Of a stretch of 55,435 bases of DNA, positions 23,964 through 43,756 are shown one piece after another. The notes beneath the pieces were generated by a model. The model was given only the letters and a program-made list of their open reading frames with translations, searched no databases and had not been told where the DNA came from. Both the position numbers and the translations under genes were made by a program. This DNA comes from a virus, in the IMG/VR virus record IMGVR_UViG_3300019880_000002, positions 1 to 55,435 of that record; one strand, 5' to 3'. Within the stretch, counting starts at the first letter, position 1. Each line of letters starts with the position of its first letter.

Positions 23964-24041
23964 AGAGTGGCGCAGCTTCAAAGTAGCGGCCACTCTTTCG
24001 ACCGGAATGCCCCTGTGGGAATTAGGAGACAGGGACCCGGT
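23964..24041 (+). ncRNA. Structured intergenic RNA with two hairpins
   Basis: AGAGTGGC (23964) pairs with GCCACTCT (23989) and TTT follows, so it may end transcription. A second element has ACCGG (24001) with CCGGT (24037) and an inner CCCTGT (24011) with ACAGGG (24029). The inner stem carries a CCCTGTGGG box. It ends just before the ribosome-binding site AGGAGG (24047) of the next gene, so it could also be a translational control element. Confidence 0.5.
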
Positions 24042-24057
24042 TGAACAGGAGGGTGAA

Positions 24058-24471
24058 GTGAATCAGATGGTGGAATACACCGACGTAGCCTGCAAGCGTT
24101 GTGGCTCTGAGCGAGGAGAACGGTGTGTGAATGCAAAGGGGCATGAAGTACCCCCTTCGCTTTCGCATAAGGCTCGTAGGGACCTAGCGATCGAGCTATC
24201 CAATCGGCGTGAAACTGAAGGCGCCAAGGGCGATGCATACTTCGCTGGAAGGGAAACCGACCTCACGAGGAAGGTACCTGAGGGATGGCAGCCAGATAGT
24301 ACAGGCGCCTTGGTGAACGGCATAAATCCGACGCTCGAGAAAGAGCGTCGGATCAAGCAGGTATTGTGGTCGATCAACTTCGCTCGTAAGGTTATGGGTG
24401 TATCGCAAGACCAGCTTGACCTCAACTTGGCCGAGATGATCGTTGATGGAGGCGTCGATGTTTCCTGCTAA
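24058..24471 (+). CDS. Phage zinc-finger protein (C-x2-C...C...H-x2-R)
   Basis: About 137 aa from GTG 24058, chosen because AGGAGG lies five bases upstream. Residues 10-45 read CKRCGSERGERCVNAKGHE then HKARRD, matching the small actinobacterial phage zinc-finger pattern C-x2-C-G-x5-C...H-x2-R. The C-terminal half is helical. The same finger occurs in the protein at 24989-25222. DNA binding is likely. Confidence 0.7.
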   Translation: MNQMVEYTDVACKRCGSERGERCVNAKGHEVPPSLSHKARRDLAIELSNRRETEGAKGDAYFAGRETDLTRKVPEGWQPDSTGALVNGINPTLEKERRIKQVLWSINFARKVMGVSQDQLDLNLAEMIVDGGVDVSC

Positions 24472-24751
24472 GGGTGCTCACCTCGAGCTGAACGAGAAGT
24501 ACCTTGCATGGATGCAAGGACGTCTGATCGAGATCGAGGCCGAGTATTCGGACGAGAACGCAGACGACGACAAGGATGCCGTCCTCGATGCTATGCTCGA
24601 ATACGAAGGTTGGGCCGAAGAGAAGGACAACTTCGGCCGTAAGGTCTTCGCTGCGACACCATACAAGGAAGGCGAGCTTCGCATCACTGTGGTTCACACC
24701 AAGCGAGGCGAGATCAGGCTCGACATCAGAGAATGGTTTGAAGGTAAGTAG
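24458..24751 (+). CDS. Hypothetical acidic protein
   Basis: 97 aa from ATG 24458 with GGAGG at 24448-24452, overlapping the preceding gene by 14 bases. Long helix ELNEKYLAWMQGRLIEIEAEY, acidic stretch DENADDDKD, then a beta hairpin (GELRITVVHT, EIRLDIREW). No known family. Acidic small early proteins of phages sometimes mimic DNA, but nothing here proves it. Confidence 0.7.
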   Translation: MFPAKGAHLELNEKYLAWMQGRLIEIEAEYSDENADDDKDAVLDAMLEYEGWAEEKDNFGRKVFAATPYKEGELRITVVHTKRGEIRLDIREWFEGK

Positions 24752-24810
24752 ACTTCCTACTTTGATCGTCGGCGAATGCAAGTTCGTCGTCGGTCATGGA
24801 AGGAGGTATG

Positions 24811-25065
24811 GTGAAATACGCCGAAGCACTTCGCCGGTTGCACAACTGCTTCTTGGGCGAAGAGGATCTTGAGATCCGAATTGTCCTTACCGACCGACCA
24901 GATCTAGTTTATAGGGGCGGCACGCAGCTTGATGTCGTTCGAGTACACAAAACCCCCACCGGTGTTGTCATGATCGAAGGAGCTATCAGTGAATCCTGTG
25001 CTGAGCAGCCGCCAGTCGAAGGCACTCGAAGTAGGATGCCCGTACTGCGGACAGCAAAAGGGTAA
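24811..25065 (+). CDS. Hypothetical protein
   Basis: About 84 aa from GTG 24811 behind AAGGAGG. N-terminal helix KYAEALRRLHNCFLG, then LEIRIVLTDRPDLVYRGG and VVMIEGA strands. The last 26 codons overlap the next gene in another frame. Unknown function. Confidence 0.6.
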   Translation: MKYAEALRRLHNCFLGEEDLEIRIVLTDRPDLVYRGGTQLDVVRVHKTPTGVVMIEGAISESCAEQPPVEGTRSRMPVLRTAKG

Positions 25066-25222
25066 GAAGTGTATCACCAAGGGTAAGTTGAATGCTGTCC
25101 CCCACAGCGCTCGACTGGTACAAGCATCCGAAGTGGCTGAGTTCAAGTCGAAGAAGCATCAGCGTCGTGCCGTTAACCACGGCTTCGTCGATGCTGGTGA
25201 GAAATTGACCTTCTCCGCGTAG
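24989..25222 (+). CDS. Phage zinc-finger protein, second copy
   Basis: 77 aa from GTG 24989 with AAGGAG seven bases upstream. CPYCGQQKGKKCITKGK followed by HSARLVQ repeats the C-x2-C-G-x5-C...H-x2-R finger of the protein at 24058-24471, here as a stand-alone unit with a Lys-rich C-terminus. Likely DNA binding. Confidence 0.7.
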   Translation: MNPVLSSRQSKALEVGCPYCGQQKGKKCITKGKLNAVPHSARLVQASEVAEFKSKKHQRRAVNHGFVDAGEKLTFSA

Positions 25223-25280
25223 CTTTAATCGTCGATGCACGGGGGCATCGGCGGTTATGGATACGAAGGACAGGAGAAAC

Positions 25281-25568
25281 ATGTACGACCTAACTTGGTA
25301 TCAAGAGGAAGCAATTCGCAACTACGGGCTGTACATGGAAGTCCAGAAGAAAGTAAGCGCGCTGGAAGCGAATGCGCTCAGGTCAGCAGGAGGGTCTGTC
25401 AAGGCGCAATCGCAACTGCTAGGCGACGCAAGGACAGAAGCAGGATTTGAGTACAAGATTCGTTGCCAGCAGAGGACAACCTACCAGACGATAACGCTCC
25501 TGAACGTACAGATGGCAATCATGATGCAAGGACGAATGGCTTCCGTACCAATGCAGCGACAGGTTTGA
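25281..25568 (+). CDS. Hypothetical helical protein
   Basis: 95 aa from ATG 25281 with CAGGAGAAAC upstream. Helical throughout (EEAIRNYGLYMEVQKKVSAL), Gln-rich, ending MASVPMQRQV. No domain recognised. A hairpin (CAC-GGGG-CC / GG-CCCC-GTG, about 25570-25604) follows its stop and probably ends the transcript before promoter P3. Confidence 0.7.
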   Translation: MYDLTWYQEEAIRNYGLYMEVQKKVSALEANALRSAGGSVKAQSQLLGDARTEAGFEYKIRCQQRTTYQTITLLNVQMAIMMQGRMASVPMQRQV

Positions 25569-25600
25569 GCACAGGGGGCCCGAGTGTAAACTTGGACCCC

Positions 25601-25631
25601 GTGTAGTCAGACTTAGTTGTCACGGTATAAT
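25601..25631 (+). promoter_or_regulatory. Early promoter P3
   Basis: GTGTAGTC at 25601-25608 (lacking the first CT of the consensus), 17 bases, TATAAT at 25626-25631. It precedes the gene at 25659 and the first tRNA-like element. Confidence 0.7.
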
Positions 25632-25658
25632 TAAGGAAGACTAGTCAAAGGAGTACAA

Positions 25659-25850
25659 ATGCATCGCAGTAGCAACATCATCCAGCCCGTACAGGCGAGC
25701 AAGTTGAGCTGGCCGGATAAGTGGCGTCGGTACCTTCGGACATTCGATCGTTCGAAGCGAAGCCATGCACAAGCTGGATGGACAGTAGGACTGGTACTCG
25801 ATATATGGAACACGATTGATTCGTGTATGTCAATGCCAGCGAAGGCGTAA
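25659..25850 (+). CDS. Hypothetical 63-aa protein
   Basis: ATG 25659 with AAAGGAGTACAA upstream. Basic N-terminal half (KWRRYLRTFDRSKRSH) and hydrophobic C-terminal half (AGWTVGLVLDIWN). No known family. A CCCACAGGGCCG box (25856-25867) follows its stop. Confidence 0.65.
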   Translation: MHRSSNIIQPVQASKLSWPDKWRRYLRTFDRSKRSHAQAGWTVGLVLDIWNTIDSCMSMPAKA

Positions 25851-25933
25851 GGAATCCCACAGGGCCGCTTTGAATAATTGGCGCATTATAGAGGAGATAG
25901 CTTAGTAGCGAATCCTAACTACATAGGTACCAT

Positions 25934-26017
25934 GGAGATGTAGCTCAATGGTAGAGCGAGTGGTCACCGGAGAGATCTGGTTGTAAACTGTTGTAGGTTC
26001 GATTCCTACCGTCTCCA
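25934..26017 (+). tRNA. tRNA-like element A (no standard anticodon arm)
   Basis: The acceptor stem GGAGATG/CGTCTCC (7 bp), D arm GCTC-AATGGTA-GAGC and T arm GTAGG-TTCGATT-CCTAC are all standard and a discriminator A follows. Between D and T arms are 35 bases that do not give a normal five-pair, seven-base anticodon arm. Instead ACCGGA-GAGA-TCTGGT (25966-25981) forms a hairpin, and an outer AGTGG/CTGTT pairing relies on G-U. It may be a decayed tRNA, a tRNA with an insertion, or a tRNA mimic serving as an RNase P/Z cleavage signal. A small gene begins 16 bases downstream. Confidence 0.5.
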
Positions 26018-26032
26018 CGGAAAGGAAATACC

Positions 26033-26179
26033 ATGCCGAAAGACGTAACGTACGTCGCGTTTCATCCGAAGGCGAAGATGCGTGCTGCACTTCTCCTTGC
26101 CAGTGTCTTGACATGTGGACTAGCCGCACCGATCTGGATAGGCTGGGAAATCAAGACGTGGAACAAGGTCTATTCTTAG
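26033..26179 (+). CDS. 48-aa membrane protein
   Basis: ATG 26033 behind GGAAAGGAAATACC and 16 bases after tRNA-like element A. One membrane helix (RAALLLASVLTCGLAAPIWIG) with a basic N-terminal side. Its neighbour downstream is also a small membrane protein. Function unknown. Confidence 0.6.
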   Translation: MPKDVTYVAFHPKAKMRAALLLASVLTCGLAAPIWIGWEIKTWNKVYS

Positions 26180-26188
26180 GGGAGTACA

Positions 26189-26386
26189 ATGCGGTTCGAT
26201 GGTAACGATCTCGTTACGCTCTGCATCGGTTTTACTGGCGGCGTACTCTACTCGTACGTAATCTTACTCCTTCAGAAGTGGGTGCAACGTAAGCTTAACC
26301 AGCTCAGTAAGGATTTAGAGGATCTTGGCCGCTTGACAAAGGTTGATAGGCCGCCACATGAAGCTAGGAACCACGACTTTCTTTAA
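26189..26386 (+). CDS. 65-aa membrane protein
   Basis: ATG 26189 with GGGGAGTACA upstream. A single helix (LVTLCIGFTGGVLYSYVILLLQKW) is followed by a charged cytoplasmic-type tail. Nine bases separate it from the previous membrane protein, so the two are co-translated. Function unknown. Confidence 0.68.
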   Translation: MRFDGNDLVTLCIGFTGGVLYSYVILLLQKWVQRKLNQLSKDLEDLGRLTKVDRPPHEARNHDFL

Positions 26387-26393
26387 GAGACAC

Positions 26394-26425
26394 CTTGTAG
26401 TCCAGCTATATACCCAGCGTATAAT
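26394..26425 (+). promoter_or_regulatory. Promoter P4, driving a structured RNA
   Basis: CTTGTAGTC at 26394-26402, 17 bases, TATAAT at 26420-26425, a full match to the phage promoter consensus. No gene follows for 340 bases; the predicted start (about 26432) lies ten bases before the first hairpin of the structured RNA. Confidence 0.8.
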
Positions 26426-26431
26426 TGAAGT

Positions 26432-26741
26432 AGAACAGCAAGGAAATGCCGGTGAAGAGCCATTGAGAATGGTCGGTACATTTCCTTGTCGATCTGCCAA
26501 GACTGACAAAGATGGGAGGCTATCATGCGGCCCATTAGATAGTAAAGGGGTCTGTCAAAGACCACTGCACGTGACAGGACGCTGTGCTGAAGGTATGAAC
26601 TCTTTTCCCTTCCCAGGGGTCCTGCGTCCTGTCACCAAGACCGAATAGCTTATCGGTAGAGCATCATAAGGTCAGATTGTTTTCCCACCCTGCATCGGAA
26701 ACAGCCTTATGAAAGAGTAGGTTCGACTCCTACTTCGGTCA
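26432..26741 (+). ncRNA. Multi-hairpin non-coding RNA ending in a tRNA-like domain
   Basis: This gap has no credible gene but is filled with helices: GGAAATG/CATTTCC enclosing CCG/CGG and CCAT/ATGG (26442-26485); TTGTC/GACAA (26486-26509); ATGGG/CCCAT (26512-26535); GGTCT/AGACC (26549-26563); and a perfect 11-bp stem GTGACAGGACG/CGTCCTGTCAC (26571-26635). Three bases later the tRNA-like element B begins. Promoter P4 lies directly upstream, so this looks like a dedicated RNA of about 310 nt. I do not recognise the family. Confidence 0.7.
26639..26741 (+). tRNA. tRNA-like element B (extended anticodon arm)
   Basis: Acceptor GACCGAA/TTCGGTC is a perfect 7 bp; D arm GCTT-ATCGGTA-GAGC; T arm GTAGG-TTCGACT-CCTAC; discriminator A. 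At the anticodon position TCATAAGG pairs with CCTTATGA (8 bp) and, instead of a seven-base loop, encloses 33 bases with a further stem TGTTTTCC/GGAAACA. So the cloverleaf is intact but the anticodon loop is replaced by a long bipartite hairpin. An intron is possible but would be very short. It forms the 3' end of the structured RNA starting near 26432. Confidence 0.6.
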
Positions 26742-26769
26742 CGCAACACTCCATTCATCAGGAGGACAT

Positions 26770-27039
26770 GTGAAGACACTCCGCATTACAAGTACAGTAA
26801 CGGTCGTCACGAACGTCCCGTACAACGAGCACCACTACGGAAAGATGACGATCGAACAGGCTGTCGAAGCTGAGAGGGACACTGACCCTAAAGTCGTCTG
26901 GGAAGCTATTCAGATGGCTGTCCAGTCTGGGGAGTGCGAAGGCTCGCAGCAACGCAATGTCGACGTGATCGACGAAGACAATAGCGATGGAGCTGCAAGG
27001 TTCGCCCTCAGTGACATTGCAAGGAGCCTTCAAGCATGA
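26770..27039 (+). CDS. Hypothetical protein
   Basis: 89 aa from GTG 26770 with AGGAGGACAT upstream, 28 bases after tRNA-like element B. Begins KTLRITSTVTVVTNVPYNEH, a beta hairpin, then helix EQAVEAERDTDPKVVWEAIQ. Acidic. It overlaps the next gene by four bases (ATGA). Unknown function. Confidence 0.72.
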   Translation: MKTLRITSTVTVVTNVPYNEHHYGKMTIEQAVEAERDTDPKVVWEAIQMAVQSGECEGSQQRNVDVIDEDNSDGAARFALSDIARSLQA

Positions 27040-27344
27040 CTACGTTGAAGACACACTTGCAGGAATGTCAGGCACTCTTCGACCAGAATGGCGACGTTGA
27101 AATCGTCGTCGAGTTGGTTGGTGGAGGGGATGCCACGCTTGAACGAGTAGAGTACGATGCAGAAGAGAACGTCGTCGTGTTCACCATCGTGCCCGACGAG
27201 ACCTCAGAGATTCCAGGACTGCCGCCAGGTGGCATGGAATTCAGAAATCGTCCTGACGCCCGCTACAGGGATGAAGGACCACTGACCAAGCCGCCCGCCG
27301 ACAGCCTGCCGGGCTTCGGGGTTGCCGAGCAGCCTGGTCAGTAG
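27036..27344 (+). CDS. Hypothetical acidic protein
   Basis: 102 aa. Helix TLKTHLQECQALFDQNG, then DVEIVVELVGG and ENVVVFTIVP strands, and a Pro/Gly-rich C-terminus. It resembles the 24811-25065 protein in layout (helix, then a beta pair). It is translationally coupled to the previous gene. tRNA-like element C starts nine bases after its stop. Function unknown. Confidence 0.72.
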   Translation: MTTLKTHLQECQALFDQNGDVEIVVELVGGGDATLERVEYDAEENVVVFTIVPDETSEIPGLPPGGMEFRNRPDARYRDEGPLTKPPADSLPGFGVAEQPGQ

Positions 27345-27352
27345 CAAGGTGT

Positions 27353-27412
27353 TGCCTGTATGGTTACAAGCTGGTCTGGGAGACAGCTGTAGGTTCGATT
27401 CCTACTAGGCAC
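27353..27412 (+). ncRNA. tRNA-like element C (compact)
   Basis: T arm GTAGG-TTCGATT-CCTAC is identical to element A. The acceptor is short (TGCCTG with TAGGCA), a D-like hairpin TGTA-TGGT-TACA overlaps it, and the anticodon place is taken by AGCT-G-GTCT-GGG-AGAC-AGCT, a strong hairpin with a three-base loop. There is no variable region. It cannot be a normal tRNA. Confidence 0.5.
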
Positions 27413-27423
27413 GCGGAGTAGGA

Positions 27424-27452
27424 CCTTGAAATAGCCCCAAAAACATTTCAAG
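27424..27452. terminator. Hairpin upstream of P5
   Basis: CTTGAAAT and ATTTCAAG form an eight-base-pair stem around an A/C-rich loop. There is no U-run. It probably separates the element C transcript from promoter P5. Confidence 0.45.
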
Positions 27453-27458
27453 ATCCCT

Positions 27459-27489
27459 CTTGCAGTCCAACTAGCTCAACCTGTATAAT
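27459..27489 (+). promoter_or_regulatory. Early promoter P5
   Basis: CTTGCAGTC at 27459-27467, 16 bases, TATAAT at 27484-27489. It lies 43 bases upstream of the gene at 27532. Confidence 0.8.
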
Positions 27490-27531
27490 AAACATAGAAG
27501 GCAATACAAAACAACGTAGAAAGGCAACACC

Positions 27532-28026
27532 ATGACAACTCCAAACTTCGACGACACCGAGACCAAGTCGGAAGAGGCTGACCTTGATGTTGAGGTCAAC
27601 GACGACGACAACCTCGATGTGGACGTTCCGGATGACACCGATGACGCCCCCAGCGAGACCGTTGCCGAAGCCAAGCCTGCGAAGGCCACTGGTACTCCTC
27701 GGACGAAGGCGCCTGAAGGCTTCGTGAAGCCCGTTGAGTTCGCGAAGGTCCTCTCGGCGCACCTCGGCAAGACCGTTCCGCCGCAGGTGGTGTACTCGTA
27801 CATCAAGAACAACTCCGGTGAAAGCGCTCGCAACCCGTTCCCCGTGCACGAGCTCGACGGGTACGCGTGGTACGTCAAGCCCGAAGAGGGTCTGGCGTGG
27901 TGGGACGCAAAGAACGGCCGTGTCGCGGCGTCCAAGGAAGAGCGTGCTGCGAAGGCAGCCAAGAAGGCTGCAGCGCCTGCCGCTGAGGCTCCGGCCGATG
28001 AGACCCCGGCTGTTGAAGCTGAGTAG
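27532..28026 (+). CDS. Putative DNA-binding protein with acidic and Ala-rich tails
   Basis: 164 aa. Residues 10-55 are strongly acidic with Asp/Val repeats. The centre (about 65-130) has VPPQVVYSYIKNN, the helix-turn-helix-like stretch also found in the 20233-20532 protein (PQMMYNYLRNG). The C-terminus is Lys/Ala/Pro rich, like histone-like or Lsr2-type tails. Likely an abundant nucleoid or regulatory protein. Its own promoter P5 precedes it, and structured RNA follows. Confidence 0.72.
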   Translation: MTTPNFDDTETKSEEADLDVEVNDDDNLDVDVPDDTDDAPSETVAEAKPAKATGTPRTKAPEGFVKPVEFAKVLSAHLGKTVPPQVVYSYIKNNSGESARNPFPVHELDGYAWYVKPEEGLAWWDAKNGRVAASKEERAAKAAKKAAAPAAEAPADETPAVEAE

Positions 28027-28040
28027 TACATAGTAAGGTA

Positions 28041-28531
28041 GGATCCGAAACCAGCCGTGAGGGCGTCCAATCGAATTGGGCCGGATCTACGAGCACAGCC
28101 AAGCTATTCCATTACCGTATCAGCCTCCCAAAGACTGAAGGAACCGGAAGCTTGGCTGTGCGTAAATATAACTCCACTCATCAAGGAGAATACCATGCCG
28201 AGAAGTAGTCTGGTGACTACGCCCTTTTGAGATTGGGATAGGTGGGTTCGATTCCCACCTCGGACTCTGCTACGTTAGCATTGGGTATACGACCATACCT
28301 GGCTAGCGGGTCCATTACAAAGCAGCTGCCTCCCGCGGCGTACGAAGTGAGCTAGGGAGATGGACGAAGTGAGGAGACCAAGCCAGGTTAGGACGGCCTC
28401 ACATTTGAAATGGTAAGGCCCTGACGTGGAGTGGAGTCGACAGAATACCACGCTGGAACTTGATCTTCGCATCCAGCTAGGACCCCTAAAAGGGTCGGTG
28501 GGAGACTGAGAAGCGTTGAAGCGTCAGGGCC
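28041..28531 (+). ncRNA. Large structured RNA region containing tRNA-like element D
   Basis: The 523 bases between two genes hold no credible reading frame but many long-range helices. These are GATCC/GGATC (28042-28087); a perfect 13-bp stem GCACAGCCAAGCT/AGCTTGGCTGTGC (28093-28161); tRNA-like element D; GGTAT/ATACC (28284-28299); CCTGGCT/AGCCAGG (28298-28387); GTCCAT/ATGGAC with CTCCC/GGGAG (28310-28365); and a perfect 10-bp stem GGCCCTGACG/CGTCAGGGCC (28417-28531). The last encloses CGTGG/CCACG, GCTGG/CCAGC and GACCC/GGGTC. The final domain is a multi-branch junction. It ends 19 bases before the next ATG. GOLLD-type phage RNAs are large and can include a tRNA, so kinship should be tested; I cannot confirm it. 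Confidence 0.65.
28196..28266 (+). ncRNA. tRNA-like element D
   Basis: T arm GTGGG-TTCGATT-CCCAC and a short acceptor CCGAG/CTCGG. The D-like arm GTAGTC-TGGT-GACTAC has six pairs and the same TGGT loop as element C. The anticodon position has only CCC/GGG around a ten-base loop. It lies within the larger structured region. Confidence 0.5.
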
Positions 28532-28549
28532 GAACCTCCAAGGAGTAAT

Positions 28550-29104
28550 ATGGAATACACAGAGCCTTCATGGCAACGTCAGTTTGTGTGGAGCCCGTCT
28601 GGTAGGTTGATCTCGACCTGGAAGTCCGACGGGTACGGGCTTTACAATACAAACGACTTCAAGGCCATTAGCCACGAGATCGATGCCCTTAGGGATTCGA
28701 TTGTTGCCTCCTTTAGCAGGCCGTGGCCTACCTCCAAAAACGATAAGGGTGAAAAAGTGGGAGTATATACCGACCAGATGGACATCGGTACCGAAGTCGA
28801 TACCGTCGTGATGGACAAAGTTCGGCAGGCGACGATCGACAAAGAGGTCGCCAAGAAGATGACCTTCATCGAAGCGTACGGAAACGATCCATTCACCAAC
28901 GGAGACGTTCTTCGCTTCACGAAGCGTTTCGCAGTTGGCGCTCCCGATGGATACTTGTACGCAGCCATCAAGGTGGATAAGTACTGGTACACAACGGGCC
29001 CACGTGGTGCGAAGTTCACGTGGGACGAGTTCGTTGCCTGGCTCGTTGCAGGTAGCAACCCGGTCACGTTCGACGAGATCGAAAGCATGACGCCTTCGTA
29101 CTAG
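28550..29104 (+). CDS. Hypothetical protein
   Basis: 184 aa from ATG 28550 with CCAAGGAGTAAT upstream. Mixed alpha/beta, with RQFVWSPSGRLISTWKSDG at the start, a Lys-rich loop and GYLYAAIKVDKYWYTTGPRG followed by FTWDEFVAWLVAG near the end. The last part suggests a small domain that binds a ligand or nucleic acid. No family recognised. It lies between two structured RNA regions. Confidence 0.75.
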   Translation: MEYTEPSWQRQFVWSPSGRLISTWKSDGYGLYNTNDFKAISHEIDALRDSIVASFSRPWPTSKNDKGEKVGVYTDQMDIGTEVDTVVMDKVRQATIDKEVAKKMTFIEAYGNDPFTNGDVLRFTKRFAVGAPDGYLYAAIKVDKYWYTTGPRGAKFTWDEFVAWLVAGSNPVTFDEIESMTPSY

Positions 29105-29111
29105 CACGACA

Positions 29112-29207
29112 GGGAAGCTCACGTAGGGCACGGTAAAGCATCAGGCGAGAAGGCCGACGGGTCGCGTCGAGTCAGATGTCCAGGAGGTTCGAATCCTCCA
29201 TTCCCAC
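29112..29207 (+). ncRNA. tRNA-like element E
   Basis: T arm GGAGG-TTCGAAT-CCTCC and a five-pair acceptor GGGAA/TTCCC. Between them a D-like GCT...AAGC with GGTAAAGC, and a five-pair hairpin CGACG-GGTCG-CGTCG in place of an anticodon arm. The weakest of the five elements. Confidence 0.4.
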
Positions 29208-29233
29208 GTAACAAGCTTTACTGGAGGGTGAAA

Positions 29234-29320
29234 GGTGCGCGGGTGATGGCGCGGCACCACATGAAAGGGGTCGGCTGAGTTCGGCAAGCAGCTGAACAAG
29301 GTCGGCCCCTTTCTTTCTGC
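29234..29320 (+). terminator. Hairpin and rho-independent terminator
   Basis: GGTGC/GCACC (29234-29258) is followed by GAAAGGGG (29263-29270) paired with CCCCTTTC (29306-29313). The latter encloses GTTC/GAAC and ends in a T-rich tail. It ends the RNA-rich transcription unit. The remaining bases to 29410 show only a GCCCTGTGGG box (29355-29364). Confidence 0.75.
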
Positions 29321-29410
29321 GTCTTAAACGATCATGCGCCACTAACCTGATCCCGCCCTGTGGGTATCTGATCAACATGTACCGGTTGCCAAGGGTCATC
29401 AATTCGTTCC

Positions 29411-29442
29411 CTTGTAGTCAACACGGTATCCTATAGTATAAT
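29411..29442 (+). promoter_or_regulatory. Early promoter P6
   Basis: CTTGTAGTC at 29411-29419, 17 bases, TATAAT at 29437-29442, 17 bases before the next start. It opens the operon of the helicase region. Confidence 0.8.
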
Positions 29443-29459
29443 AAAGGATGGAGGTAAAA

Positions 29460-29675
29460 ATGTTGAAAGATCAGCTCCGTCTTAGTGAAGAAGATGCAGA
29501 ACTACTCGACGAGATCCTCGAGCAGAGTATCACCATCGAGGAAGAAGTCCTCGACACGGTGATTGACCAAGATCAAACTCCTGATACCATCGAAGGGTTC
29601 ATGGAGGTAGTGAGCACACAACAAGAGCGCATTGCACTACTGAGGCAGATGCGAGAGCGTTTAGGGGGACAGTAG
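29460..29675 (+). CDS. Hypothetical acidic helical protein
   Basis: 71 aa from ATG 29460, preferred over ATG 29448 because GGAGG lies six bases upstream. Very acidic helical protein (LSEEDAELLDEILEQSITIEEE), coiled-coil-like. The last base is shared with the next GTG start. Function unknown. Confidence 0.72.
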   Translation: MLKDQLRLSEEDAELLDEILEQSITIEEEVLDTVIDQDQTPDTIEGFMEVVSTQQERIALLRQMRERLGGQ

Positions 29676-30154
29676 TGCCAATTGATGCACGGACAGCAGA
29701 GCCAACTGACCCATTACCGGGTGACCTAACAGTTATCCCGGCCATGTTCGAGCATGCGAAGCTAGTTTACAACACCATGCTCGAGACAGCAAAGTTGGAT
29801 CCTGAGAACAACCTACCAACGTACGAAGGTCACTTGACGAACTTATTCAAGGGTCTTCGTCTTAGTGTTCCGTATTACACCACGATCAAGAACATGCTTG
29901 TCCAGATGGGTTGTATCGAACAGACCCGTCGTGGAGGAGGTAATGGAACGAGCAAGTGGGTACTATGGAAGCCTCCAGAACTTGAAACTTGGAAGGCAGC
30001 CGAGTTCAAGAACCCTCGGCATGGCAACAAGCAGACACGTACGGAGCAAATGGTTAAGGACTTGACGACCCGAATGAGGGAACTCGAGAACGTAATCATG
30101 AAGCAGCAAGACCAACTCAACGCACTAAAGGAGTGGACAAAGTTCAATGTCTGA
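29675..30154 (+). CDS. Putative DNA-binding protein with coiled coil
   Basis: 159 aa from GTG 29675, sharing a base with the upstream TAG. The centre (about 45-105) resembles a winged helix: helices, then YTTIKNMLVQMGCIEQTRRG and GTSKWVLW as the wing strand. Residues 120-155 form a coiled coil (LTTRMRELENVIMKQQDQLNAL). Likely a dimeric DNA-binding regulator or replication accessory. Confidence 0.68.
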   Translation: MPIDARTAEPTDPLPGDLTVIPAMFEHAKLVYNTMLETAKLDPENNLPTYEGHLTNLFKGLRLSVPYYTTIKNMLVQMGCIEQTRRGGGNGTSKWVLWKPPELETWKAAEFKNPRHGNKQTRTEQMVKDLTTRMRELENVIMKQQDQLNALKEWTKFNV

Positions 30155-30500
30155 ATCAGTACAGACGACACTGGAGGAAGCTAGCCGCTGCCCGAAGTGC
30201 AACGAGGTCGGGGAGCTCCTCAAGAAGACACCAATCGCATCGCGATCTCCTAACGGAGCTCGACGTGAGGTGACTATTGGAGCACAACTTCACCACTTCA
30301 TGTGCATGAACACACGATGCAAGTGGTACAATGAAGTATGTCGACTCGTCCAGGTCAACCCTGATGGGTCGATTCCGCCGCCACAGGTGAAGAGGATCAA
30401 AGAGTTCCCGGTTGTGCCTGATCGTACGAGGGAAGTCAACGACGCGCTCGAACGTCAATTGCGTCTGGAGCTTGAAGGTGGCGCTGAGGTCTCACGCTAA
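30147..30500 (+). CDS. Zinc-ribbon-like protein
   Basis: 117 aa. CPKC (about 15-18) and CMNTRC (about 53-58), with a nearby His, fit a zinc ribbon. The C-terminal part is charged with a helix NDALERQLRLELEGG. Overlaps the previous gene by eight bases. Probably nucleic-acid binding. Confidence 0.68.
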   Translation: MSESVQTTLEEASRCPKCNEVGELLKKTPIASRSPNGARREVTIGAQLHHFMCMNTRCKWYNEVCRLVQVNPDGSIPPPQVKRIKEFPVVPDRTREVNDALERQLRLELEGGAEVSR

Positions 30501-30575
30501 GAGACCTTAGTTAGACAAACAGCTAGGTAAAGTATTCTAAACACCAGATTCCTTTGGTCTAATAGCTCGTCTCTT
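30499..30575. repeat. Intergenic hairpin element (AAGAGAC family, copy 3)
   Basis: AAGAGAC (30499-30505) pairs with GTCTCTT (30569-30575); inner GTTAGAC pairs with GGTCTAA. The first 20 bases closely match copy 1 at 3243 (AGAGACCTT then TTAGACAAAC). It begins in the stop codon of the upstream gene, so it may act as a terminator. Confidence 0.6.
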
Positions 30576-30670
30576 AGGTCTTTTCTACTAGTCTATAGCT
30601 TTGCTAGCTTAGGATTACGTTGACCTTGACGAGCTATTATACGAGTGGTATCCGGACGAAAGAGGGTAGC

Positions 30671-31180
30671 ATGGCAACGCGCCGTGAGATGGGATTGTCT
30701 GCTCGATCTGACATGAACATCCTTAGTGCTGGCTGGGCCGAAGTCTTCATGTCAGGCAACGAAGCTGAACAGACTAGCAAGGTAGCACAGGATATGTTCC
30801 ATTGTCCTCCCGGGCTTCGTAGCTTTCTCGAAGACGTAATCGAAGAAGGAATCGATCATGTCAATAGTGACATCACTCGGATGTACGAGAGTGGTCAACT
30901 TGAGGCTGGAACCGAAGAAGCATATAACCAGATCATGTACAGATTGGTTCATCTCACACGCTTCGTTAGCACTAGGATGTACGTACTCGGTCAGCACATG
31001 GTAACACGTTTGCCTTTTGACAAACTGACTCCGTGCCCATGTGACGTGTTGTACGAAGATGAGCTGGAAGACTTCTTGAAGCAGGCTTCGTACAACATGC
31101 AAGGCTATCGGAAGTCATTGAGAGGGGATGGGTTCGTAATCTTGAACTGGAACCCTGACAAGAAGCCGGAGCAGACATGA
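30671..31180 (+). CDS. Hypothetical protein
   Basis: 169 aa from ATG 30671 with AGAGGGTAGC upstream. Helical, acidic (SFLEDVIEEGIDHVNSDITRMYESG), with a small CPCDVLYEDELEDFL segment near the C-terminus. No family recognised. It overlaps the next gene by four bases and leads the helicase operon. Confidence 0.75.
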   Translation: MATRREMGLSARSDMNILSAGWAEVFMSGNEAEQTSKVAQDMFHCPPGLRSFLEDVIEEGIDHVNSDITRMYESGQLEAGTEEAYNQIMYRLVHLTRFVSTRMYVLGQHMVTRLPFDKLTPCPCDVLYEDELEDFLKQASYNMQGYRKSLRGDGFVILNWNPDKKPEQT

Positions 31181-38046: not shown

Positions 38047-40317
38047 ATGACCGCACCGGCTACGCCGGAAGAACAACGCCTTCGTCAGGAAATGTTCTTC
38101 AAGCTGCTGTTCGGAACAGACGTAGAAGGGTACGTTTGTCTTGCCTACATGAATATGCTAGGTGGCAAAAAGAACTTTACGGAGGAGTTCTTCATGTACC
38201 CTGATGAGCTCCCCCGAATGATTCACAGCATAGCTCAAAACCGTTCCAGCAACAATGTGTACTTCTGTCCGCAGATACTCAAAACTAACCAACGTGCGCC
38301 TGGACAAAAGAGCGCAAGAACGAAAGACAATATCAAAGTTTGCACGGCAGCTTGGGCAGACCTTGACACATGCAATCCATCACTGCTCCTCGTTCCCCCA
38401 TCCATAAGCTTAGAAACGTCGGACAACCGATTCCACGCCCTGTGGGTGTTTGACAAGCCAGTTGCCCCCGAAATCGCTGAACAGATCAGTAAGAACATTG
38501 CATACCACCATGTCAATGATGGAGCTGACAAAGGCGGTTGGGACTTAACCCAATTACTTCGTGTACCGGCAACATTCAATCTAAAGTACCCCCTGCCCTA
38601 TGAAGTACGAATTGCGAAAATCTCACGCGATCAAGTTCTGCTTGAAGAGTTCAGCGTGTATCGTGAGTCGAGGATCAACACACTTACTCACGATCCAATG
38701 CCTGAGGTTCTTCCGACAGATACTGGAAATGACATCCTGCAGAAGTATCGTAGGTCGATCAATTCCATCGTGTTCAGCATTCATAGTCAAGTACCTGGTG
38801 ATGTAGAAGAGGAAGGTGGTTGGAGCAAACCTCTTTGGCAACTTCAAATGCTTTGCTTTGAGGCAGGAATGTCTCGAGAGGAAGTATTCATTGTAGCCTC
38901 AGATGCTGCATGCAACAAGTACAAAAGAGATGGTAAGCACCCACGCCTTTTATGGGACGAAGTATGTCGGGCGTATCTCACGACGGTTGAAAAGCTTAAC
39001 ATTCTGGTACCTGAAACGGAAAAGCAATCGCCGCTGATAACGTCCGAGGAACTTAAGTCGTTGGAGGGTTATGAAACGTTTGTAGAAAGGTACATCCAAT
39101 GGGCAAGTACCCTTGGGGACGCGGCGAAAGCATACCACCAAGCCGGCGCGCTTATGATCCTGTCCTCTTTGTTGGCTGGAACGATTCGCTTGCCGACGTC
39201 GTTCGGCGTTATCATGCCGAATCTGTGGTTCATGCTCCTAGCGGACACGACTCTGACACGAAAATCGACTGCTATGGACATAGCGATGGACATGCTGGAC
39301 GCAGTGGACGACAACGTGCTGCTCGCCACAGATGGGTCCCTCGAAGGTCTTATGCAGTCATTAGAGATACGACCAGGCAAGCCATCGATGTTCCTGCGCG
39401 ACGAGTTTTCCGGGCTTATCGAGGCCATGACCCGAAAAGACTACTACGCTGGTATGGCCGAAGCACTTACAAAACTATACGACGGCAAGACAATGAAAAG
39501 AGTACTAAAACGTGAAACAGTAACGGTTAGGGAACCATGTCTTCTAATTTTTGCAGGAGGGATCAAAACAAGGGTCCAATCACTCCTGACACTGGACCAT
39601 GTGTCTTCTGGTTTCGTTCCGAGGTTTTTGTTCTTGACTGCGGAGTCAGATGTCTCTACCTTGCAACCTTTAGGTCCACCCACCCCGGAGAACCTGGAGG
39701 GCCGACAAGAACTGATCGAGGAACTGGAAGAGCTGAGGGATAGATACATCGTCACCCATGAAGTCATTGTTAAGGGTAACGTCGTTGATATCTCCGAGGC
39801 AAGGTGGGATGCCAAGCTAACTCCTGAAGCTTGGCAAAGGTACAATCAGCTCGAAGCTACTCTGTTGTACTCAGGTGTTAATAGTGATCAACCGGACATT
39901 ATGACACCTGTGTATGACCGACTAGCCAAGTCAATCTTGAAGGTAGCCGTACTCATTGCAGCAACAAGGCCACAAGAGGAACTCGTGGTCGTCGAGATAG
40001 AAGACCTACTGCAAGCCATCATGTACGGCGAAGGCTGGAGAACATATGCTACCGAGATCGTAAATGGTATCGGGCGCTCCGCAAACGAGATTCTACTCCA
40101 GCGCGTCTTCAAGAGTATTCGAAAGCACCCTGGAATTGCTAGGTCGGTACTAATGCAATGGTACCACCTAGAAGCTAGACAAGCCGACATCATCTTTGGT
40201 ACGCTTGAACAACGAGGACTTATCCTGGCGACCAAGATGAACAGAACGTTCGTATACGAAGCAGCTGGGAGGCTGAAGTTCAATGACCCAAAAGCCCTTA
40301 GCCCTAGCCGTACTTAG
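38047..40317 (+). CDS. Primase-helicase (AEP/RepB-type primase with DUF3987-like ATPase)
   Basis: 756 aa. The N-terminal third has the archaeo-eukaryotic primase pattern: AWADLDTCNPS (catalytic Asp pair, about 99-109), NRFHALWVFDKP (His, about 127-138) and GWDLTQLLRVPATFNLKYP. The C-terminal part (about 350-560) is a DUF3987-like ATPase with ADTTLTRKST as P-loop (about 399-408), LRDEFSG and FAGGI motifs. It should prime and unwind DNA at the fork. Overlaps QueC by 35 bases. Confidence 0.85.
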   Translation: MTAPATPEEQRLRQEMFFKLLFGTDVEGYVCLAYMNMLGGKKNFTEEFFMYPDELPRMIHSIAQNRSSNNVYFCPQILKTNQRAPGQKSARTKDNIKVCTAAWADLDTCNPSLLLVPPSISLETSDNRFHALWVFDKPVAPEIAEQISKNIAYHHVNDGADKGGWDLTQLLRVPATFNLKYPLPYEVRIAKISRDQVLLEEFSVYRESRINTLTHDPMPEVLPTDTGNDILQKYRRSINSIVFSIHSQVPGDVEEEGGWSKPLWQLQMLCFEAGMSREEVFIVASDAACNKYKRDGKHPRLLWDEVCRAYLTTVEKLNILVPETEKQSPLITSEELKSLEGYETFVERYIQWASTLGDAAKAYHQAGALMILSSLLAGTIRLPTSFGVIMPNLWFMLLADTTLTRKSTAMDIAMDMLDAVDDNVLLATDGSLEGLMQSLEIRPGKPSMFLRDEFSGLIEAMTRKDYYAGMAEALTKLYDGKTMKRVLKRETVTVREPCLLIFAGGIKTRVQSLLTLDHVSSGFVPRFLFLTAESDVSTLQPLGPPTPENLEGRQELIEELEELRDRYIVTHEVIVKGNVVDISEARWDAKLTPEAWQRYNQLEATLLYSGVNSDQPDIMTPVYDRLAKSILKVAVLIAATRPQEELVVVEIEDLLQAIMYGEGWRTYATEIVNGIGRSANEILLQRVFKSIRKHPGIARSVLMQWYHLEARQADIIFGTLEQRGLILATKMNRTFVYEAAGRLKFNDPKALSPSRT

Positions 40318-41218
40318 CGGCGGGCTCGACTCCACTACGATGGTGTACGAGCTTATCGAACAGGGCTACCAAGTTGACTGCGTCTCGTTCAACTACGGGC
40401 AGCGTCACAAGAAGGAACTGAAGTTTGCAGCATCGACCTGTGCGATGTTGAATCTCAAGCACGACACCGTCGATCTATCGGGATTGACACACCTCATCTC
40501 GAACTCGGCACTCACCTCAGGACGTGCAGAGACTCCAAGTGAGGAGTTCAACAACGATTTCAACCAGCTTATCGACGTGCCTGAGGGTCACTACGCTGAA
40601 GATACTATGGCAGCTACAGTCGTACCAAATCGAAACATGATTATGATCTCCATCGCTGCTGGCATCGCTGTGAATCGTCAGGCGAAGACGATCGGTGTTG
40701 GAGTACATTCCGGAGACCACTTCGTCTATCCTGATTGTCGTCCGGAGTTCATCTTCGCTGCAGGGCAAGCCATCATCATGGGCAACATGGGCTTCCATAA
40801 CTTCGACATCGAGTTCGATCCTGAGGACCCTAAGTACGTGGATCTCGTTGTGCAGGGTTGGACGCGTATGGCGAAGCCTTTAACGACACCTTTCATGGAA
40901 TCGTCGAAGGCTGATATTGCCTTCAGGGCGCTCGAGCTTGGCGTTCCGCTCTTCATGACGTGGAGCTGCTATAAGGGTGGCGACAATCATTGTGGACGTT
41001 GTGGCACGTGTGTCGAGCGTCTCGAAGCAATTGACGAGGCCCAGAAGCGATGGGTTTGGGAGAAGCCAGGTATGAGTGTGCCCGTTGACCAAACGGTGTA
41101 CGATGACGAAGAGTACTGGCAGGTTGTCGTTCATGAGGCGAAGAAGGCAACTGCCGAAGAAGAAGAAGAAGAAGAAGAAGATGAAGGCTTCATGGATAAT
41201 CACTCCGAGGTATACTAA
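40283..41218 (+). CDS. queC: 7-cyano-7-deazaguanine (preQ0) synthase
   Basis: 311 aa. PP-loop SGGLDSTT (about 12-19) for ATP, VPNRNM (about 113-118), and a zinc site C-x7-C-x2-C-x2-C (CYKGGDNHCGRCGTC, about 233-247). QueC turns 7-carboxy-7-deazaguanine into preQ0 using ATP and ammonia. It is longer than usual (about 230 aa) because of a C-terminal extension with a run of eight Glu encoded by GAA repeats. First gene of the deazaguanine cluster; QueE begins at its stop. Confidence 0.93.
   Translation: MTQKPLALAVLSGGLDSTTMVYELIEQGYQVDCVSFNYGQRHKKELKFAASTCAMLNLKHDTVDLSGLTHLISNSALTSGRAETPSEEFNNDFNQLIDVPEGHYAEDTMAATVVPNRNMIMISIAAGIAVNRQAKTIGVGVHSGDHFVYPDCRPEFIFAAGQAIIMGNMGFHNFDIEFDPEDPKYVDLVVQGWTRMAKPLTTPFMESSKADIAFRALELGVPLFMTWSCYKGGDNHCGRCGTCVERLEAIDEAQKRWVWEKPGMSVPVDQTVYDDEEYWQVVVHEAKKATAEEEEEEEEDEGFMDNHSEVY
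41158..41181 (+). repeat. GAA trinucleotide run
   Basis: Eight in-frame GAA codons encode a poly-Glu tract near the QueC C-terminus. A simple repeat of this type can change length by slippage. Confidence 0.8.
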
Positions 41219-41955
41219 TGGTATGGATCAACGAGATCTTCGGACCAACAATCCAAGGTGAAGGATCCGCAGCAGGTAGACACTGCATGTTCATTCGTGT
41301 TGCGGATTGCAACCTAGAATGTTCCTGGTGTGATACAGCTTACACCTGGGCGTTCACTGCATCCAAGGCAGGCGCAACCGAAAGCGGACGGCTTTACGAT
41401 AAGGCTAGTAATCGCTACGTGATGATGTCATCTGAGGTTATTGACCGCCTACGCAAGCTATGGGATGTTAAGAGGCATCCGACCACAATCGTCATTTCTG
41501 GTGGCGAGCCTCTAATGCAGGCTCGTGACCTAGTTCCTATTATACAGGAGCTGAGCCAATGGGGTAACCAGATTCACATCGAAACGGCTGGCACACTCTT
41601 CTCACCTACCGCATTCGATTGCTGGGTAACACAATACAACGTATCGCCCAAGCTTATGAACAGTGGGAATTTACTTTCGAAGCGACGTAAAATCGAAGTG
41701 CTTCAAGACTTCGCAGAGAAGCCGCACGCATGGTTCAAGTTCGTTGTGCAGGATACTCCTGACTTTGGGGAAATCGATGAGCTAGTGGAGATGCTCAACA
41801 TCAATCCGAATCGAGTCATGGTTATGCCGGAAGGTGTAACTGCAGAAAGAAACATCGAAGTCGCACGTCGAATTGCCACACATGCTGTTAGTCGAGGCTA
41901 TGGACTTTCGTTCCGTACGCACATCCTGCTATGGGAATCTACAAGAGGGAAGTAA
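41218..41955 (+). CDS. queE: 7-carboxy-7-deazaguanine synthase (radical SAM)
   Basis: 245 aa. EIFGPTIQGEGSAAGRHCMFIRV leads into CNLECSWC, the C-x3-C-x2-C variant that binds the radical-SAM iron-sulfur cluster. ISGGEPLMQ is the SAM-binding motif. QueE forms the 7-deazapurine ring from carboxy-tetrahydropterin. Starts with the last base of QueC. Confidence 0.93.
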   Translation: MVWINEIFGPTIQGEGSAAGRHCMFIRVADCNLECSWCDTAYTWAFTASKAGATESGRLYDKASNRYVMMSSEVIDRLRKLWDVKRHPTTIVISGGEPLMQARDLVPIIQELSQWGNQIHIETAGTLFSPTAFDCWVTQYNVSPKLMNSGNLLSKRRKIEVLQDFAEKPHAWFKFVVQDTPDFGEIDELVEMLNINPNRVMVMPEGVTAERNIEVARRIATHAVSRGYGLSFRTHILLWESTRGK

Positions 41956-41956
41956 A

Positions 41957-42307
41957 ATGGGAATGCATGGAAGCAACATTTTCCTGGATGATGGCCCGGG
42001 CGATAGTAGTTACCTCGCTAACACTCTGGAAGCAATTGTTCCAATCGAGTATCGTGTTGAGGTGTACAACGGATCAGCAGAGCCAGTCTTGACCCTAAGG
42101 ACGTGGGGCGGATGGAACATCGAGGGTTCATTCCTCTGTGTTCATGACGTGAATGGTTTGAAGGAAGCTCACATCATCGCCGAGGACGTGGAATACATCA
42201 AGACAGTCGAAGTTGCTGAGTACATGGCAGCCAAAGAAGACAAGCTAGCCATCATTCCTGGCGACAACAACTTCCTCAGTGCTACTGAGCAGATGGAGGT
42301 ACAGTGA
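41957..42307 (+). CDS. Unknown protein within the deazaguanine cluster
   Basis: 116 aa from ATG 41957 with GAGGGAAGTAAA upstream. Beta-rich, acidic (YRVEVYNGSAEPVLTLRTWGGWN), no catalytic motif recognised. Embedded between QueE and QueD with a four-base overlap to QueD, so a role in the pathway or its regulation is possible. Confidence 0.7.
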   Translation: MGMHGSNIFLDDGPGDSSYLANTLEAIVPIEYRVEVYNGSAEPVLTLRTWGGWNIEGSFLCVHDVNGLKEAHIIAEDVEYIKTVEVAEYMAAKEDKLAIIPGDNNFLSATEQMEVQ

Positions 42308-42759
42308 ATAGCTTCAGAGCAGGACTCTTCGTAAGACACAACGCGGAGATTGCACATCGTCTCTTGTTGTTGCCTGGCAAGTGTCAGCAAATCCATGGAC
42401 ACTCACTCGATGTCGAACTGAGCATCGCTGGACACATCGATGCAAATGGTATTCTAGCTGGTTTGGACTTCTCGAACGTGAAGAGTGTCTTCCGGGATTA
42501 CCTCGATACGATGTTCGACCACCAACTTCACTTGAACGCTGATGATCCATGGGCAAACATCCTGCATGCAGAAGATGGCGATGTAATGCTGATCAATACG
42601 ATGGGAGGGCTGCCAGGTCTTCGTACATGGCCTGGAGATCCAACCACTGAAAACTTCGCAAAGTGGATGTGTGAACACATGCACGAGAAGTTCGGATTGC
42701 CTGTCAAGATCGCCATCATCGAAACCCAAAGCAACGGTGCAGAATACGAGTTGGGATAA
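42304..42759 (+). CDS. queD: 6-carboxy-tetrahydropterin synthase
   Basis: 151 aa from GTG 42304. AEIAHRLLLLPGKCQQIHGHSL holds the zinc histidines (first His, then HGH) and the catalytic Cys; DHQLHL and PTTENFAKWM follow. The family converts dihydroneopterin triphosphate to carboxy-tetrahydropterin, feeding QueE. Four-base overlap upstream. Confidence 0.92.
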   Translation: MNSFRAGLFVRHNAEIAHRLLLLPGKCQQIHGHSLDVELSIAGHIDANGILAGLDFSNVKSVFRDYLDTMFDHQLHLNADDPWANILHAEDGDVMLINTMGGLPGLRTWPGDPTTENFAKWMCEHMHEKFGLPVKIAIIETQSNGAEYELG

Positions 42760-43094
42760 TGGCCAAGAGAAATGGAAAGCAAAGTCGATTCTCACTTAGT
42801 GATCGACTTGCATCGATGGCCGAAAAGGCTGAAATCCGGCGCATGAAGAAGGAAGGCGCTAGCAGGGAAGAGATTGCACAAGAGCACCGATGGACGCCAG
42901 TACCTAACCGTAAGCACCTCCGAAGTGTGGGCATCAACATCACTCACTCAGCTTCGATGTACGGACGGCTTGTTCGCTACCGTCTTACTCCATGTTCCCT
43001 CCAAACGTCCGTTGCGATCCACACCATAGGATCTGATGGCAATACCAAGAAGTTCATTGTGCCTCGTGATCGATACGAAAACAAGGACGCCTAA
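42759..43094 (+). CDS. Unknown basic protein within the deazaguanine cluster
   Basis: 111 aa from ATG 42759, sharing one base with the QueD stop. A basic helical N-terminus (RLASMAEKAEIRRMKKEGASREEIAQEH) resembles a small helix-turn-helix of the resolvase type. The C-terminal half is beta-rich. Could be DNA binding. Unknown. Confidence 0.68.
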   Translation: MAKRNGKQSRFSLSDRLASMAEKAEIRRMKKEGASREEIAQEHRWTPVPNRKHLRSVGINITHSASMYGRLVRYRLTPCSLQTSVAIHTIGSDGNTKKFIVPRDRYENKDA

Positions 43095-43756
43095 TGCCAG
43101 GCGAGTCTGTAGTACCAGAAGAGTTCAAGGATATATTGAAAAGGCTTGGTGCAGATCTAGTGAAGCAGAATCCTAACATGTTAGGCTTCAAAGCCTTGGC
43201 CGATCCGGAGAAGGAGTCGATCGAAGCTGCAGAGGTTCTTCTTCGTACTGCAGCTGGCCTCGACGTGAATGACATGCATGGCAAGGACACACCAACGCGC
43301 TTCGTTCACATGTTGAAGGAGCTTACAGAGCCTCTTCCGATCAAGTGGAAGACGTTCCCGAACGATGGAATGGACGAGATGATCATCGTCCGCAACATTC
43401 CATTCGTTTCACTTTGTAATCACCACGTCATTCCTTTCATTGGAAAGGCTGACATCGGCTACGTTCCGGACGAGTCTGTAGCAGGCTTGAGCAAGTTTGC
43501 CCGAGTCGTACACCACTTCTCCAAGGCACTTCAAGTTCAAGAACGACTGACACAACAGATTGCCAACTTCCTTGAAGAGAACCTCAAGCCTAGAGGGGTA
43601 GCTGTTGTTATGGAAGCCGAACACCTCTGTATGACGATTCGAGGTGTACAGACACCAGGTACTAAAACGTATACGGCAGTCATGTCTGGTGTATACAATG
43701 ATCACGCTCGTACTGCAAAAGCCGAGTTTTTGGCAAGGCTGAATGGCGGACACTAA
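43094..43756 (+). CDS. folE: GTP cyclohydrolase I
   Basis: 220 aa. SLCNHHVIPFIGKADIGYVP carries the zinc Cys and the catalytic His pair. KFARVVHHFSKALQVQERLT and EAEHLCMTIRGV (second zinc Cys) complete the signature. It opens GTP to dihydroneopterin triphosphate, the first step to preQ0. Confidence 0.93.
   Translation: MPGESVVPEEFKDILKRLGADLVKQNPNMLGFKALADPEKESIEAAEVLLRTAAGLDVNDMHGKDTPTRFVHMLKELTEPLPIKWKTFPNDGMDEMIIVRNIPFVSLCNHHVIPFIGKADIGYVPDESVAGLSKFARVVHHFSKALQVQERLTQQIANFLEENLKPRGVAVVMEAEHLCMTIRGVQTPGTKTYTAVMSGVYNDHARTAKAEFLARLNGGH

Follow-up and report, generated by a model that had tools for sequence, protein, structure and literature searches.

Transfer RNA-shaped elements without a decoding arm in a family of uncultured viruses: possible natural scaffolds for exchangeable RNA cargo

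Five small elements that are built like transfer RNAs (tRNAs) and carry other folded RNA where the anticodon loop should be lie between genes on the plus strand of the IMG/VR virus record IMGVR_UViG_3300019880_000002 (55,435 bases), which is referred to here as the window and which encodes terminase, portal, capsid, helicase, primase and DNA polymerase. Our analysis confirmed the places of these elements, named A to E, which had been noticed in a preliminary description made from the letters alone, and found elements of the same kind in 19 related viral contigs. The elements are structured RNAs that are conserved at the RNA level. With a probability of roughly 55%, we suggest that they are natural tRNA scaffolds which release stable, non-decoding RNAs with an exchangeable cargo.

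The relatives were reached via the helicase first and then via a 164-amino-acid protein (window 27532–28026) and a 159-amino-acid protein (at 29675), which resulted in a family set of 20 genomes, namely the window and 19 related uncultured viral contigs. Scanning both strands with the T-arm pattern NNNGG-TTCRANN-CCNNN returned 66 distinct T arms, every one of them on the coding strand, with at least one in each of the 20 genomes and a maximum of six; in the window exactly the five elements were hit and nothing else on either strand. Because the pattern demands GG/CC and a TTCRA loop, T-arm variants are missed, an example being L043:4780 (locus:position; called Lys by ARAGORN), which is outside the 66. 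An acceptor stem of 7 base pairs (bp) with at least six Watson-Crick pairs was present within 55–200 nucleotides (nt) for 46 of the 66, compared with a mean of 4.1 and a maximum of 9 in 200 trials in which the acceptor halves were swapped between genomes. Base-pair counts on scan hits are biased towards pairing, and the claim of pairing therefore rests on such permutations and on the alignment tests described below. Chance is ruled out by the strand bias together with the permuted acceptors, so that the earlier impression of a non-random set was correct. Of the elements, which are 60–186 nt long, 62 do not touch any conserved reading frame. In four cases there is an overlap with a frame that had been extended to its first possible start codon; the frames at L005:6023, L005:6936 and L015:7091 are taken to be over-long, and the fourth overlap is at L057:4704.

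One test of pairing comes from a group designated class 2, comprising 12 elements from 11 genomes which are all located upstream of the gene for the 164-amino-acid protein and share a D-type stem with a short loop, a small hairpin and GGAAG or a similar sequence before the T stem. In their alignment 91.2% of the cells are paired and both sides have changed in 13 of 18 pairs. The double-change cells number 51, compared with 14.3 after shuffling, and 0 of 500 shuffles reached this value; pairing falls to 35–50% when the partners are slid against each other. Element D and its counterpart L043:6910 keep 19 of 19 pairs with four compensatory changes, although this comparison involves only two sequences and 33 of 500 shuffles were equal. 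These compensatory changes rule out decay, and the pairing that homologs would be expected to conserve, if the elements are genuine, is indeed kept. Element E and its L009 counterpart share 95% identity; the stretch 29111–29340 is 81% identical in L009, compared with 65% in the preceding coding DNA. The core of E was found in no viral contig searched other than that of L009. In general, the acceptor/T half keeps its shape while its sequence varies. The outermost T-stem pair, which is not demanded by the scan, is Watson-Crick in 53 of 64 cases, G-U or U-G in ten, G-A in one and A-C in none, as expected for an RNA of the coding strand; ten G-U pairs and no A-C pair argue against hairpins acting at the DNA level.

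Within the window, the T arm is complete in all five elements, and the acceptor ranges from 7 bp in A and B down to 5 bp in D and E. Element A (25934–26017) shows by sequence, fold and Rfam match a tRNA shell with a 7-bp acceptor including one G-U pair, a 4-bp D stem with GG in the D loop, a 5-bp T stem with the loop TTCGATT and the discriminator A at 26017; a CCGGA-GAGA-TCTGG hairpin replaces the anticodon region, and an ATG with a Shine-Dalgarno (SD)-like sequence follows at 26033. Element B (26639–26741) has a 7-bp acceptor, a D arm and a T arm, and its anticodon stem is extended to 8 bp (TCATAAGG/CCTTATGA), with a second hairpin substituting for the anticodon loop. It had been singled out beforehand as the clearest case for this very architecture. 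In register, its loop is devoid of the uridine at position 33 (U33), and a GTG start follows 28 nt behind its end. The Rfam tRNA model assigns 50.2 bits to A and 49.4 bits to B (cut-off 29).

Element C begins at 27352, one position before the 27353 given previously, and extends to 27413. By scan and fold it consists of an acceptor/T-arm shell with one hairpin inside, a perfect T arm and six acceptor pairs, the outermost being open, and it starts 7 nt past the stop codon of the open reading frame (ORF) 27036–27344. Element D (28196–28264), which is supported by its fold and by the L043 counterpart, has a 5-bp acceptor (28198–28202 with 28259–28263), a 6-bp D-type stem with a 4-nt loop, a 3-bp stem and a 5-bp T arm, and matches the selenocysteine tRNA model weakly (26.4 bits, cut-off 47). 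Element E (29112–29206) begins 7 nt past the stop codon of ORF 28550–29104 and folds into a 5-bp acceptor GGGAA/TTCCC, a D-type stem, a long branched insert and a 5-bp T arm. The folding z-scores are −2.8 for A, −3.4 for B, −1.0 for C, which is the weakest of the five, −2.5 for D and −2.4 for E. An acceptor stem had been described for all five elements; every one has one, but it is imperfect in C, D and E.

Phage tRNA genes are commonly explained as a supply for codon usage. Replacement of tRNAs destroyed by the host or by defence systems has also been put forward (PMC13096335). Neither function would suit the elements described here, as tRNA-shaped phage RNAs which are unable to decode and nevertheless conserved as a set call for another rationale. 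None of the five window elements passes a test for a canonical anticodon arm (5-bp stem, 7-nt loop, U33), as had been claimed, and in the whole set only 6 of 66 do so, compared with a mean of 2.1 and a maximum of 7 in shuffles; half of the six are real tRNAs in distant relatives (L058:7050 Met, L060:1283 Met and L060:1798 Gly). Thirty-two elements possess a D stem whose loop contains GG, and in 22 of these an anticodon stem of 5 bp stands in register, whereas shuffling gives 9.3 on average and 15 at most. U33 occurs in 8 of the 32, including the three real tRNAs. In many elements the stem has thus been retained and the loop replaced.

Standard tRNA models, which the preliminary description had named as a check, thus recognise no ordinary tRNAs with valid anticodon arms in the window. 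Default ARAGORN calls C as Tyr(gta) and D as Leu(gag) and leaves A, B and E uncalled; when introns are allowed, A becomes Arg(ccg) with an 8-nt intron and B Sec(tca) with a 30-nt intron. Compared by position with the 66 elements, default ARAGORN gives a three-letter anticodon to ten, an odd-sized one to five and no call to 51, and annotation pipelines may therefore be expected to miss most elements of this type and to misread some others. Transfer-messenger RNA (tmRNA) is likewise rejected: neither a covariance model at E-values up to 5 nor ARAGORN detected one in the window, and in the relatives the model matched solely a T arm with 16.2 bits (cut-off 84). The Rfam search of the window returned no match to other RNA families.

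The 3' ends are of the tRNA type. A C follows the discriminator position (C74) in 62 of the 66 elements and CG in 54, and CCA is encoded in none of them. T arms that are combined with a 7-bp acceptor served as a yardstick, taken from 80 further viral loci (L080–L159) and in most cases called as tRNAs by ARAGORN; the loci had been chosen by one ACGTAA trailer each, and that match was excluded from the count. Here, C follows the discriminator in 343 of 354 tRNA-type 3' ends, and the next base is A in 117, G in 99, T in 83 and C in 44. Because C74 is nearly universal in the yardstick, it characterises the 3' ends of phage tRNAs and is shared by the elements, while the G behind it is a habit of this element family. 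It seems that phage tRNA-type 3' ends generally have C74 encoded in the DNA but not the whole CCA. Of at least 120 stretches given by the ACGTAA pattern scan, the 80 listed were analysed; in these, 60 of 83 matches coincide with a canonical ARAGORN call and 23 with none; among T arms with a 7-bp acceptor in the same 80 stretches, 54 of 406 have no canonical call. One contig, L152 (minus strand), contains four tRNA-type 3' ends, each of them followed by ACGTAA.

Elements with matching shells can differ in their interiors. Element C and L009:3288, which occupy the same slot, have 27 of 31 shell positions identical and unalike interiors (z −0.2), and several further pairs behave in the same way, whereas some other interiors are similar. 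The shell scores of D and E in this comparison are out of register and were left unused, because the ends of these two elements, like those of L005:7388 and L009:4978, were set by hand. In an unrelated virus, L106:6926 and L106:4593 agree in 26 of 26 shell positions on the 5' side and 23 of 24 on the 3' side, with interiors no closer than shuffled ones, and the interiors of three more elements of L106 are likewise unrelated. Conversely, the motif AYGACATACCG is common to the interiors of L005:6885 and L015:5696, which come from different slots in different genomes, and is absent from the other 64. From these cases we conclude that interiors are replaced while the shell is kept, and that some of them are conserved in themselves. 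At both places (L005:6935 and L015:5743) the motif is matched by a GCGACCG-type 3' side and has the appearance of an asymmetric internal loop that is conserved. Further unrelated viral contigs also carry tRNA shells with interiors of 98–159 nt or similar: in addition to L106 (4494–7219, minus strand), these are L143, L159, L117, L115 and L093, and none of their shells receives a canonical call in default ARAGORN.

The placement of the elements among the genes is conserved as well. A leader hairpin, defined as a perfect stem with 9 bp or more that ends 2–5 nt upstream, precedes 13 of the 66 elements, compared with 0.45 at random positions (maximum 2), and 27 of the 66 have an SD-like sequence with a start codon at most 45 nt downstream, compared with 7.0 (maximum 13). 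Five elements, namely C and E of the window, L004:5986, L005:5974 and L005:7388, start 7–8 nt past a stop codon. These three features fit an excision from mRNAs at gene borders. Element B has a leader hairpin of its own at 26571–26635 (plus strand), a 12-bp perfect stem with a 41-nt loop that is separated from B by the spacer CAA.

The scheme that we favour starts from small RNA genes which retain the acceptor stem, the T arm, often the D arm and the anticodon stem, and the templated C74, and in which another folded RNA, the cargo, would take the place of the anticodon loop. The elements would be co-transcribed with the surrounding genes. RNase P of the host may then cleave the 5' end, often right behind the leader hairpin, and RNase Z, followed by CCA addition, may complete the 3' end; the same cuts would provide the downstream mRNA with a short leader before its ribosome-binding site. 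Substrate recognition by RNase P, RNase Z and the CCA enzyme depends on the acceptor/T half of tRNA, and it is this established knowledge of tRNA maturation, combined with the kept acceptor/T half, from which processing of the elements is deduced. The preliminary description had proposed sites for the same three enzymes, and the structure and covariation indeed indicate that the arms which they recognise are preserved. According to this scheme the shell would be retained for its shape and would yield a stable RNA, whereas the cargo would be the functional part, exchanged or conserved by itself; our leading guess is that it binds a host protein or RNA. The idea that the elements act as decoys for anticodon nucleases, which had also been raised, is the least supported of the readings and was rejected, as the anticodon loop that such a nuclease cuts is missing. 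Taken as a whole, the interpretation offered in that description is thus partly supported; the conservation across the family, the exchange of interiors, the hairpins shortly before many elements and the 3' base of the tRNA type lay outside its view.

Several observations weigh against the scaffold scheme. Leader hairpins and close start codons are restricted to just 13 and 27 of the 66 elements, respectively, and C, D and E, with their imperfect acceptors, remain under the Rfam tRNA cut-off. The interiors fold only moderately better than shuffled sequences (median z −1.1, with 17 of 66 below −2), and most cargos share nothing between genomes, which is also compatible with unconstrained filler. 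Finally, the longest runs complementary to the element's own locus (9.39) equal those of shuffled interiors (9.41), so that there is no cis-antisense target to back a regulatory cargo; antisense action on the own locus was accordingly rejected as a function.

Much of the placement would be expected as well if the elements served purely as punctuation, as in mitochondria, directing RNase P and RNase Z to gene borders and releasing an idle RNA. The excess of nearby SD-like sequences and start codons, the elements that begin directly behind a stop codon, and the leader hairpins, which could shield the upstream 3' end, all point in this direction. Such a role leaves unexplained, however, why E is so much better conserved than the coding DNA before it, why interiors reach up to 186 nt and why two consecutive shells (L016:6531 and L016:6612) should sit between the same genes, and we regard it as unlikely. 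An action on the next gene in cis is a different use of the same position: in leaders of the thrS type, translation is controlled by a protein that recognises tRNA, and about 15 of the 66 elements end 13–33 nt before a start codon, where a tRNA shape in the 5' untranslated region could work in this manner. Others, however, end a transcription unit or sit far from any conserved start, and the interiors are freely exchanged, which makes control in cis very improbable.

The constant shape and variable sequence of the acceptor/T half, as well as the several copies per genome, would also suit sponges for proteins that bind this half, be it processing enzymes, EF-Tu, modification enzymes or defence enzymes acting there. 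Conserved interiors and the proximity to start codons find no explanation in such sponges, and the neighbouring window proteins that were tested matched no defence family except QueC/QatC; we therefore consider this possibility to be rather improbable. Finally, the elements might be ordinary tRNAs that are intron-bearing, odd or decayed, in favour of which one may quote the intron-mode labels for A and B, the default anticodons for C and D and the 3 of 66 that are real tRNAs in distant relatives. Plain decay is incompatible with the compensatory changes, small-intron tRNAs are ruled out by the scarcity of U33, since the canonical anticodon loop that should result once a self-splicing or BHB intron is removed does not emerge, and the inserts, at 8 and 30 nt, fall well short of the self-splicing introns of bacterial tRNAs, so that hardly any weight can be given to this explanation.

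Among known systems, the closest object is an RNA of phage T4, which encodes the small stable RNAs RNAC (species 1 RNA) and RNAD next to its tRNAs. At its end RNAC has a perfect T arm (CCGGG TTCGAAT CCCGG), preceded by hairpins standing for the D and anticodon arms, and thus has the same form as the elements. It differs in having an imperfect acceptor when counted from its annotated 5' end, in its location inside a cluster of real tRNAs and in that one or two such RNAs occur per genome, whereas the elements number up to six per genome and are scattered among genes, in the case of the window without any ordinary tRNA gene. As far as form is concerned, RNAC is a precedent. The function of RNAC and RNAD is termed unknown in passages of PMC9697503 (2022), PMC3014915 (2010) and PMC12685909 (2025), the last of which also reports on a T4-like phage with a host-adaptation mutation in the region of rnaD.

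The other parallels are more remote. In engineered tRNA scaffolds of the Ponchon and Dardel type, foreign RNA inserted at the anticodon of a tRNA is reportedly matured and protected by host enzymes; these are man-made, while the elements have evolved, occur several times per genome and are linked to leader hairpins and gene borders. tmRNA also has a tRNA-like end domain without an anticodon arm, but the elements do not match it. Murine gammaherpesvirus 68 (MHV68) produces several non-decoding tRNA-like RNAs with attached hairpins, the tRNA-microRNA-encoding RNAs (TMERs). These are RNA polymerase III transcripts of a eukaryotic virus with the hairpins 3' of the tRNA, whereas the elements have hairpins on the 5' side and the insert inside the tRNA. 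In mitochondria, tRNA-shaped RNAs at gene borders are excised by RNase P and RNase Z (PMC8601606); those tRNAs decode, in contrast to the elements, and here the genes are spread over several transcription units. RNase P is also described to cleave several non-tRNA RNAs, including phage RNAs (PMC11143913). A description of this element family was not found in the open-access papers that were searched, which is a weak negative.

If the scaffold scheme is true, phages exploit the tRNA maturation line of the host for the production of stable non-tRNA RNAs. The elements also offer a basis of comparison for the enigmatic RNAC and RNAD of T4. A bolder and more tentative suggestion, to which we would assign somewhat less than even odds, is that the elements belong to a general modular class of phage RNAs in which the tRNA shell is a cassette for maturation and stability and functional RNAs are plugged in, several per genome, and exchanged between slots and genomes under host selection. 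RNAC of T4, which has been known for decades, would then be a member, and the unrelated viruses L106, L159, L117 and L115 would use the same device.

The composition of the family set needs some further remarks. The window gave no DNA match among 50,697 phage records with the settings used (24000–31000 by blastn, 1–25000 by megablast), and its helicase and capsid proteins reach about 31% identity at best to those of cultured phages. For the helicase no relative was found in bacterial genomes, and ORF 28550 used as a query matched nothing. Not counted among the 66 are loci of contigs already included (L006–L008, L010–L012, L045, L046, L063, L064, L066–L069 and L076), near-copies from other samples (L001–L003, L044, L048, L051 and L061) and loci with no scan hit (L013, L070 and L071). 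Near-copy status refers to equal match statistics instead of an alignment, and for L002, L048 and L051 also to equal scan hits. Likewise outside the 66 are 26 distant helicase loci (L017–L042), many with little DNA upstream of the helicase; any T arm is present in six of them (L019, L020, L029, L037, L039 and L042), three of which hold an ARAGORN-called tRNA there.

The 164-amino-acid protein that marks the class 2 slot has an acidic N-terminus and is 60–79% identical in close relatives; it showed no family match and no relative among cultured phages. Being encoded between C and D, it may bear on the RNAs. At some distance, window 40283–44879 contains a preQ0 (7-deazaguanine) set composed of QueC, a radical-SAM protein in the position of QueE, a PTPS/QueD-type protein and GTP cyclohydrolase I. 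The 251-amino-acid protein at 44124–44879, which has no Pfam match, could be a DpdA-type DNA transglycosylase by its resemblance.

The gaps between the window elements contain further strong non-coding hairpins on the plus strand: one upstream of B at 26432–26495 (z −3.2), one upstream of D at 28093–28161 with a 13-bp perfect stem and a 43-nt loop (z −5.8), and a long one between D and ORF 28550 at 28412–28536 (z −4.2). A promoter-like candidate, TTGCAGTC-N16-TATAAT, is located at 27460–27489 (plus strand) after C and before the gene for the 164-amino-acid protein, and a terminator-like stem with a T-rich tail follows E at 29291–29314 (plus strand), inside the stretch that is 81% identical to L009. 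As the scans for promoters and terminators performed near chance, the transcript borders remain guesses. Directly upstream of the promoter-like site, the non-coding stretch 27429–27470 (AGCCCCAAAAACATTTCAAGATC and neighbours) is 88% identical in L005 and also lies within longer matches to L009, L014 and L065.

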